Shown here: piece by piece, positions 7,039 to 14,077 of the stretch
How positions within the stretch are numbered: position 1 is the stretch's first letter
Layout: each line of letters opens with the position of its first letter
Source of the DNA: Hydrotalea sp.
GTDB lineage: Bacteria; Bacteroidota; Bacteroidia; Chitinophagales; Chitinophagaceae
Length of the DNA stretch: 64,000 bases
Reading direction: 5' to 3'
NCBI GenBank assembly: GCA_022402565.1
Contig: JAKRSC010000025.1
Coordinates: forward strand, 1 to 64,000
The notes under the pieces: model-generated
The model's input: only the letters and a program-made list of their open reading frames with translations
What the model was told of the DNA's origin: nothing
Database searches by the model: none
Program-made: the position numbers and the translations under genes

Positions 7039-7156
7039 AACAATGTTTCTATTTGGTCGGGAAATTAACAATTGTTAAAGAAGTGTGAGAAAGAAAATTT
7101 GGAAAGCGCTTTGCCTTAGACCATTTTTGTGCCGTATTTGGTTTCAGACTAAACTA

Positions 7157-7312
7157 AGTTTAGTTTGAATTAAAAGGGAAACAGGTGTAATTCCTGTGCT
7201 ATCCCCGTAGCTGTAAATTGTTGCTTTCAGCAATTTTATAACAAGAAACCACTGTTCAACAGAAGAATGGGAAGGTGTTATAAAAGACAATAAGCCAGAA
7301 GACCTGCCAACT
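7157..7312 (+). ncRNA. cobalamin riboswitch
   Basis: The conserved core is visible in order: AAAAGGGAA (7172-7180), the CCCCGTAGCTGTAA block (7203-7216), ACCACTG (7248-7254), TGGGAAGGTG (7268-7277) and the B12 box AAGCCAGAAGACCTGCC (7292-7308). This matches the adenosyl/hydroxocobalamin aptamer family. It lies about 120 bases upstream of a BtuB-like TonB receptor, so high cobalamin should turn receptor synthesis down. A small TTCAC/GTGAA hairpin (7322-7340) follows. No T-run terminator was seen before the gene, so control at translation initiation is more likely than transcription termination. Outer boundaries are approximate. Confidence 0.93.
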
Positions 7313-7432
7313 ACGTATTCATTCACGGCTTTCGGGTGAAAGGCATGGGATGTTACCTGTCGCTGCAGAGACAAGCTACGTCCGTTCTTTTTATGATTCG
7401 AAAGCTCATTGTTCATCAAAAAAAACAAAACA

Positions 7433-13382: not shown

Positions 13383-13414
13383 ATTTCAGGCCTAAGCCCC
13401 TACTTTTGCTCCTC

Positions 13415-13486
13415 GGCCTCGTAGTACAATGGATAGTATGAGAGTTTCCGGAGCTCCAGATCCAGGTTCGATTCCTGGCGAGGCCA
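13415..13486 (+). tRNA. tRNA-Arg (anticodon CCG)
   Basis: A full 72-base cloverleaf can be drawn. The acceptor GGCCTCG pairs perfectly with CGAGGCC. The D arm is GTAC/GTAT with loop AATGGATA. The anticodon arm AGAGT/GCTCC has loop TTCCGGA, which puts CCG at positions 34-36 and an A-C mismatch at the outermost pair. The variable loop is AGAT, the T arm is CCAGG-TTCGATT-CCTGG, and the discriminator is A. CCA is not encoded. CCG reads the CGG arginine codon. It is immediately followed by the tandem array made from its own 3' end. Confidence 0.95.
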
Positions 13487-13491
13487 CTTTA

Positions 13492-13955
13492 GCTATTGCG
13501 AATTGCAACTCGAGCTATACTCTAATTACATTATTTCCAGGTCCCGACGCTAAGGTCGGGATGCTGACCTTTAGCGTCAGCATTCGATTCCTGGCGAGGC
13601 CACTTTAGCTATTGCGAATTGCAACTCGAGCTACACTCTAATTACATTATTTCCAGGTCCCGACGCTAAGGTCGGGATGCTGACCTTTAGCGTCAGCATT
13701 CGATTCCTGGCGAGGCCACTTTAGCTAATGCGAATTTCAACTCAGGCTACACTCCAATTACATTAATTCCAGGTCCCGACGCTGCGGTCGGGATGCTGAC
13801 CTTTAGCGTCAGCATTCGATTCCTGGCGAGGCCACTTTAGCTAATGCGAATTTCAACTCAGGCTACACTCCAATTACATTAATTCCAGGTCCCGACGCTG
13901 CGGTCGGGATGCTGACCTGTAGCGTCAGCATTCGATTCCTGGCGAGGCCACTTTA
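13492..13955 (+). repeat. four 116-bp tandem repeats built on the tRNA-Arg 3' end
   Basis: Four units of exactly 116 bp (13492-13607, 13608-13723, 13724-13839, 13840-13955). Every unit ends with TTCGATTCCTGGCGAGGCCA plus CTTTA, the same 25 bases that end the tRNA and its flank at 13467-13491. Units 1 and 2 differ by one base, units 3 and 4 by one base, and the pairs differ from each other at about ten positions (an AABB pattern). Each unit holds a TAGCT/AGCTA-type stem, then CCAGG, a 41-nt double hairpin and TTCGATTCCTGG. There is no reading frame of note and no integrase nearby. Origin and function are unknown. Confidence 0.97.
13542..13582 (+). other. 41-nt double-hairpin insert (first of four copies)
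   Basis: Copies lie at 13542-13582, 13658-13698, 13774-13814 and 13890-13930. Each has two abutting 7-bp stems, TCCCGAC/GTCGGGA and TGCTGAC/GTCAGCA, and sits exactly between the T-stem strand CCAGG and the T-loop TTCGATT of a tRNA-Arg T arm copy. The two loops (GCTAAG and CTTTAGC) are nearly complementary, so an alternative long stem GACGCTAAGGTC with GACCTTTAGCGTC is also possible. In copies 3-4 the first loop is GCTGCG. Confidence 0.9.
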
Positions 13956-14077
13956 ATCACTCCATTTTACAATTTTGACATAGAGCTGACTATCAATAGG
14001 TATTGATTTAAAAAAAAATAAGTATTAGTAAACTTTTGAACTTATTTGTTGTTGATTTTGGACGAAAAAAGAATCAA

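Follow-up and report, generated by a model that had tools for sequence, protein, structure and literature searches.

Among described systems, the nearest known relatives in behaviour and layout of the array analysed here are the phage enzyme SegB and the RtT repeats of the E. coli tyrTV locus. The RtT repeats (RF00391; rttR/tpr) stand in tandem behind a tRNA; every unit closes with the 3' end of that tRNA, and hairpin-rich sequence interrupts its T-loop between the 5' and 3' halves of the T-stem. These E. coli tyrT repeats were reportedly described in 1978, and we know of no GIY-YIG partner for them. Where integrative elements have entered tRNA sites, a duplicated tRNA 3' end is what they usually leave; those moved by tyrosine recombinases bring their own copy of the tRNA 3' end in place of the original one, and the gene survives. 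Short non-coding palindromic units, presumably moved in trans, are represented by REP/BIME sequences and MITEs. SegB, from the tRNA region of phages T4/T6, is a free-standing GIY-YIG homing endonuclease that cuts inside tRNA genes, its motif RAWTSGAAC being the reverse complement of the T-loop sequence GTTCSAWTY; it drives tandem tRNA amplification, for which its active site and homologous recombination are required, and it acts in trans (PMC13096335). It is carried on phages, and palindromes or copies of tRNA ends are not reported there (PMC13096335).

The window, i.e., the whole 64,000-nucleotide stretch of Hydrotalea sp. DNA that was analysed, holds a tandem array behind a tRNA-Arg(CCG) gene. 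From sequence comparison, we consider it likely that the array consists of non-autonomous (MITE-like) units in tandem, belonging to a GIY-YIG homing-type element that targets tRNA genes and whose cleavage and mobility we infer. As with SegB, the GIY-YIG enzyme is encoded beside tRNA genes, and the interruption of the window units, between T54 and T55, splits exactly the SegB motif; by analogy, SegB is a direct precedent for the proposed chemistry. Unlike SegB, the Bacteroidota element is chromosomal and phylum-wide, the tRNA is restored, the displaced copy is marked by palindromes, and ORF-less arrays occur. The array also differs from the RtT repeats, which have a 178-bp spacing (by direct reading) and an insertion after A58 rather than at T54|T55, and which match the window neither in sequence nor by covariance: RF00391 gave four matches in E. 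coli (133–138 bits) and none at E ≤ 1 over window positions 13400–14000, so the window array is not an RtT member and is only laid out alike. In contrast to integrative elements, there is no recombinase, the units measure about 0.1–0.4 kb, the junction carries a palindrome, and versions that mirror the arrangement at the tRNA 5' end exist. Window-type units lie in tRNA arms and are not dispersed as REP/BIME sequences and MITEs are, and their putative partner is a GIY-YIG protein.

Structure of the array behind tRNA-Arg(CCG)

The intact tRNA-Arg(CCG) gene, which has a complete 3' end and is the presumed target, lies at 13415..13487 on the + strand (ARAGORN; Rfam RF00005, 59.2 bits) and is followed on the same strand by four 116-bp units at 13488..13603, 13604..13719, 13720..13835 and 13836..13951. 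The initial annotation had described an array of four units, all exactly 116 bp long and all closed by the tRNA 3' end, and this was borne out by ARAGORN, by Tandem Repeats Finder (13467–13955: period 116, 4.2 copies, 97% matches, 0% indels) and by a 25-mer count over the whole window, in which TTCGATTCCTGGCGAGGCCACTTTA recurs every 116 nt, five times in all, and is absent from the opposite strand. The tail TTCGATTCCTGGCGAGGCCAC-TTTA is likewise found five times, 116 apart, and is absent elsewhere in the window; the TTTA past the last unit (13952..13955, + strand) is a remnant of the native tRNA 3' flank, common to all five copies. Unit 2 is 1 nt off unit 1 and unit 4 is 1 nt off unit 3, with 8–10 differences between the pairs (unit 3 is 8–9 nt off units 1 and 2); because the unit pairs have diverged, the array is not one collapsed repeat. 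Elsewhere in the window, a cobalamin riboswitch (7122–7325; RF00174, 109 bits) stands ahead of a TonB-dependent receptor and of apparent cobalamin assembly genes, which reach to ~12.1 kb.

The key detail, overlooked by the initial annotation, is that the units also carry a T-stem half and that palindromes split the T-loop. The tRNA-derived part of each unit starts, before the 20-nt tail, with CCAGGT, i.e., the 5' half of the T-stem and T54. Next come two palindromes, CCCGAC-N6-GTCGGG and then ATGCTGAC-N7-GTCAGCAT, and after these T55CGATTCCTGG and the acceptor 3' strand. Given this order, a unit consists of a spacer and the 3' part of the tRNA with its T-loop split exactly at T54|T55. In unit 1, the interrupted T-arm, CCAGG-T54-(hairpin 1)(hairpin 2)-T55CGATT-CCTGG, spans 13537..13594, with hairpin 1 at 13543–13560 and hairpin 2 at 13561–13583; the interrupted T-arms of units 2–4 lie at 13653–13710, 13769–13826 and 13885–13942, all on the + strand. 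This structure was delineated by covariation and by a covariance model, R1, with which the T-arms of units 1–4 score 75.7–76.4 bits each. No GIY-YIG ORF was found in or beside the window array.

T-loop units, 14 in number and representing eight tRNA identities, could readily be aligned. At independent tRNAs (Arg-CCG, Arg-CCT, Asp, Gly, Leu, Val, Met and Ser), the palindrome pair sits at exactly T54|T55, each within its own T-stem. The structure scored comprised the T-stem, a 6-bp hairpin 1 right after T54 and an 8-bp hairpin 2 right before T55. All 266 cells were paired (100%), both sides had changed in 14 of the 19 pairs (10/14 in the palindromes alone), and the observed covariation was reached in 0 of 500 shuffles, with slid controls paired at 27–47%. 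The hairpin geometry is thus kept while the sequence varies, which shows a structural constraint, on DNA or on RNA. A dispersed REP-like repeat was considered and rejected for the window's genome, since the CCCGAC-N6-GTCGGG pattern is confined there to tRNA arrays and one 5S terminator-like hairpin. In another genome (G039; L214, L217, L220 and further loci), double hairpins with the pattern TCCCGACGATNAATGTCGGGATGCCGACCGANAGCGTCGGCAT, about 15 in all, are dispersed away from tRNAs, like REP/BIME; this genome is without a close relative of the nuclease described below.

Sister arrays and the GIY-YIG family

Within the window's own genome, the double palindrome recurs, in the same position of the T-loop, at tRNA-Arg(CCT) and tRNA-Asp. 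The association of the units with tRNA genes, as first proposed, held there: full-length R1 matches occur only at three tRNA genes, and none is scattered. The tRNA-Arg(CCT) array has 93-bp units with no ORF, and the tRNA-Asp array has 373-bp units, each coding for a protein of 82 aa that contains a GIY-YIG nuclease domain (PF01541, E=2.3e-16). By profile search, the closest solved structures are small GIY-YIG proteins of the UPF0213/URI type (PDB 1zg2, E=1e-15; 1ywl, E=1e-12). At tRNA-Ala(GGC) of this genome there is one copied 3' end, with a GIY-YIG ORF between it and the gene. A tRNA-Met locus (L023, on C25) carries an ORF-less array at 108-bp spacing, in which a hairpin unlike those above, TCCGCCCCTGACGGGGCGGA, replaces the anticodon 3' and variable sequence; its first copy has a terminator of its own, and there is an N gap inside the array, as there are runs of N in several related arrays of this assembly.

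Relatives of the Asp-unit ORF were found in 58 of 99 genomes of the family and in 131 of 198 genomes of the phylum, at up to 22 per genome and often in tandem, 300–400 bp apart. The surroundings of 100 Bacteroidota ORF groups were read. In 70 of them, a tRNA on the strand of the ORF ends no more than 450 bp upstream (median distance 43 bp); an opposite-strand tRNA is found there in none, and a further 14 lie just 5' of a tRNA; the chance expectation of tRNA adjacency is ~0.0025 per ORF. The remaining 16 groups comprise six at contig edges, two in RNase P RNA genes, two with orphan tRNA copies, five in which a tRNA stands between units or immediately behind the ORF (one locus counted twice) and one true exception. 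This exception (L045; C17:107327) belongs to the window's own genome, where a GIY-YIG ORF unlinked to a tRNA lies amid GGTGCCTGAGGCTCTCGAAGGC-type repeats. Among named genomes, a tRNA adjoins 16 of 17 Bacteroidota relatives and 0 of 5 relatives from other phyla. A phage origin of the element was rejected, as two scans of viral contigs gave no relative.

Typically, an intact tRNA comes first, with a terminator behind it in some cases, and the GIY-YIG ORF follows. The locus closes with a second, incomplete version of that tRNA: its 3' part is intact, and a palindrome interrupts one arm or stands in its place. In the mirror form, the tRNA 5' part with a palindrome is followed by the ORF and then the intact tRNA. 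Across the family, the interrupted arm is the T-loop, the anticodon arm, the D-arm or the variable region. The complete element, as read from such layouts, lies directly 3' (in the mirror form 5') of a tRNA, encodes a predicted GIY-YIG nuclease of ~82 aa and leaves the tRNA intact. The near-invariance of the catalytic residues among 98 ORFs (Y6 in 95, Y17 in 98, G19 in 97, R27 in 98 and E63 in 98), together with a dN of 0.042 against a dS of 0.33 between Kaistella and Chryseobacterium ORFs, indicates that the protein is under selection.

Both RNase P RNA genes that hold an ORF of this family (L139, G150:C16; L140, G256:C17) have it in the loop of a 16-bp stem, CCCCGCACATAACATT/AATGTTATGTGCGGGG; a P1-like 5' strand, AGGAAAGTC, precedes the ORF, and the strand that partners it, GACTTTCCT, lies at the RNase P 3' end. 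Structured RNA genes other than those of tRNAs may also be used by the element.

Target specificity, ORF-less units and turnover

In a tree of 98 ORFs, tRNA identity changes 36 times, compared to 68.2 times when identities are shuffled, and 0 of 200 shuffles gave as low a value; the tree rests on 83 columns only, and many of its forks are open. One well-supported clade comprises 16 ORFs at tRNA-Pro, whose hosts belong to at least seven families. In the group of the Asp nuclease (support 93, not starred), nine tRNA identities occur, and the breakpoint lies mostly 19–23 nt from the tRNA 3' end, i.e., in the T-loop. ORF phylogeny thus tracks the putative tRNA target across host families. Since the T-loop is near-universal among tRNAs and the anticodon arm is not, the pattern of the tree fits a nuclease that would recognise the arm that is interrupted.

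ORF-less units are tied to coding units most directly in Kaistella soli and Chryseobacterium sp. R2A-55, where a single tRNA-Ala array mixes ORF units of 385/387 bp with units of 143/148 bp. The shorter units are internal deletions with the same leader and trailer and nearly the whole ORF gone, and this shared leader and trailer links the two kinds within the anticodon-arm type (Ala), the only type in which ORF deletion was seen, and not in the T-loop type. The window's T-loop units are tied to the nuclease by the shared palindrome pair and by co-occurrence: a T-loop element is present in all five family genomes with an ORF at least 50% identical to the Asp nuclease and in three of the 94 others (Fisher 7.8e-7). 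The window unit and the coding Asp element share the palindromes and the tRNA end, and the spacer of the 116-bp unit is without evident similarity. In one genome (G054, L205:953–1600), tRNA-Arg(CCG) is followed by a GIY-YIG ORF unit, the tRNA copy of which has a D-loop hairpin, and then by a decayed T-loop unit, so that two element types are stacked at one tRNA. As a coding parent at tRNA-Arg(CCG), this locus was rejected, being of the D-loop type and not of the T-loop type.

Comparison with congeneric genomes bears on gain, loss and concerted change. At tRNA-Gly(TCC), the window's genome is empty, and two congeners carry one and two T-loop units. In these congeners (L094 and L098), the T-loop units lie between tRNA-Gly and tRNA-Thr in a tRNA-Thr-Tyr-Gly-Thr-tuf operon, ahead of tuf; from this position inside a tRNA operon, they are probably transcribed there. 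All three species have arrays at tRNA-Arg(CCG), a locus identified by the MarC-like gene upstream of it (88% identity). The arrays of the two congeners stem from independent assemblies and lie at the same tRNA with the same upstream gene, which excludes an assembly artefact and upholds the view that the window array is genuine. Between species, the spacers at this locus are completely different and the T-stems of the units match those of each species' own tRNA (CCAGG here, CCCAG in the congeners), which indicates turnover or gene conversion between the tRNA and its units.

Putative mechanism, alternatives and meaning

The nuclease would cut a tRNA gene in one arm, for the window type in the T-loop between T54 and T55, and repair against an element-bearing copy would insert the element. 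Its left end would supply a new tRNA 3' end, so that the tRNA would survive the insertion, and the old 3' end would be pushed outward behind the palindrome, where it would no longer be a target. Tandem accumulation could follow because each insertion would rebuild an intact target upstream and so allow more units, or because cuts would provoke unequal recombination between repeats. The nuclease encoded in this genome's tRNA-Asp array would act in trans on the ORF-less units of the window, as we infer from the shared hairpins and the co-occurrence. When the locus is held against known homing-type elements, a GIY-YIG domain with intact catalytic residues is present in the coding form, in the sister units and not in the window; the element lies at its target, and the target sequence is disrupted in the element-bearing copy, with the T-loop of the upstream tRNA intact, which is atypical. 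Several points speak against this reading, among them the absence of a GIY-YIG ORF from the window array and its flanks, the dissimilar spacer, the presumed cut site that the intact tRNA still has, and the size of the protein, as 82 aa that include no separate DNA-binding domain are few for a homing enzyme with a specific target.

The array might instead have arisen by plain tandem duplication, in which a REP-like palindrome pair had entered a tRNA 3' end and slippage or unequal crossing-over multiplied the product, without any element or enzyme, the array being inert. The near-identical pairs 1/2 and 3/4 fit a duplicated dimer or local homogenisation, and congeners keep arrays at the same tRNA, so vertical descent and recombination explain part of the copy number. 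This account has to contend, however, with eight independent tRNAs that carry the pair at one exact position, and with a sister-unit nuclease whose tree follows the tRNA target, and we regard it as unlikely. The duplicated tRNA 3' ends are also what serial site-specific integration by tyrosine recombinases, with the tRNA 3' end as attachment site, would leave behind. The initial annotation had seen no integrase near the array, and there is indeed none among the ORFs at 8–20 kb of the window; in addition, the duplication begins in the T-stem and palindromes always break it at the same point, the sister units carry a GIY-YIG ORF, and mirror elements duplicate the 5' end. With no integrase ORF near the array and the wrong shape of duplication, an integrase remnant was rejected, and we consider serial integration highly improbable. 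The same annotation's proposal of minimal cassettes or serial-integration remnants nevertheless came near the mark; ORF-less deletion units exist in Kaistella and Chryseobacterium, and the putative partner enzyme is a GIY-YIG nuclease and not an integrase.

An RNA-level reading would make the GIY-YIG protein an RNase directed at the anticodon or T-loop, and would see in the hairpin-bearing tRNA copy a transcript that serves as decoy, sensor or resistant version in a toxin-antitoxin or defence system, the window array then being an expanded bank of decoy RNAs. ORF lineages are specific to tRNA identity, the tRNA copies keep paired arms with compensatory changes, as RNA would, and no terminator-like T-run separates the tRNA from the units in the window. 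Against these stand the terminator between tRNA and ORF at many loci and the activity of characterised GIY-YIG members that match the profile, which are DNases (SLX1, I-TevI); moreover, covariation of the palindromes is expected equally for DNA hairpins, and the copies are without the 5' acceptor strand and often without the D-arm. We judge this reading quite unlikely. An earlier version, in which the units form a structured RNA with decoy acceptor strands, found no positive support: the window unit is itself without the 5' acceptor strand, and an Rfam RNA family was rejected, none other than tRNA matching at E ≤ 1 over 13400–14000.

Taking the array, as we prefer, for the non-autonomous form of a tRNA-targeting GIY-YIG element, a broader proposal can be made tentatively, and may well prove too wide: that Bacteroidota possess a distinct element class, consisting of an arm-targeting GIY-YIG nuclease, boundary palindromes that act as hairpin or cruciform recognition marks, and coding and non-coding cassettes that regenerate the tRNA, with T-loop lineages using any tRNA and anticodon-arm lineages one identity, and with the E. 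coli tyrT repeats as an ORF-less branch of the same strategy. No description of such an element came up in the literature covered on GIY-YIG proteins in connection with tRNAs, tandem repeats and Bacteroidetes; subscription journals lay outside this search, and an earlier description is possible. A 2006 survey of the GIY-YIG superfamily does not mention an association with tRNA genes. The proposal predicts that the cut site of each lineage would be the arm in which its palindrome sits.

tRNA genes are the best-known landing sites of mobile DNA, and the accepted agents are integrases. The present findings indicate a second route, by which an element built on a very small GIY-YIG nuclease, present in about two thirds of the surveyed Bacteroidota genomes (131/198), would occupy tRNA genes and leave them whole. 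The element is also a candidate for the parent system that non-coding arrays of tRNA 3' ends have lacked since the E. coli tyrT repeats.
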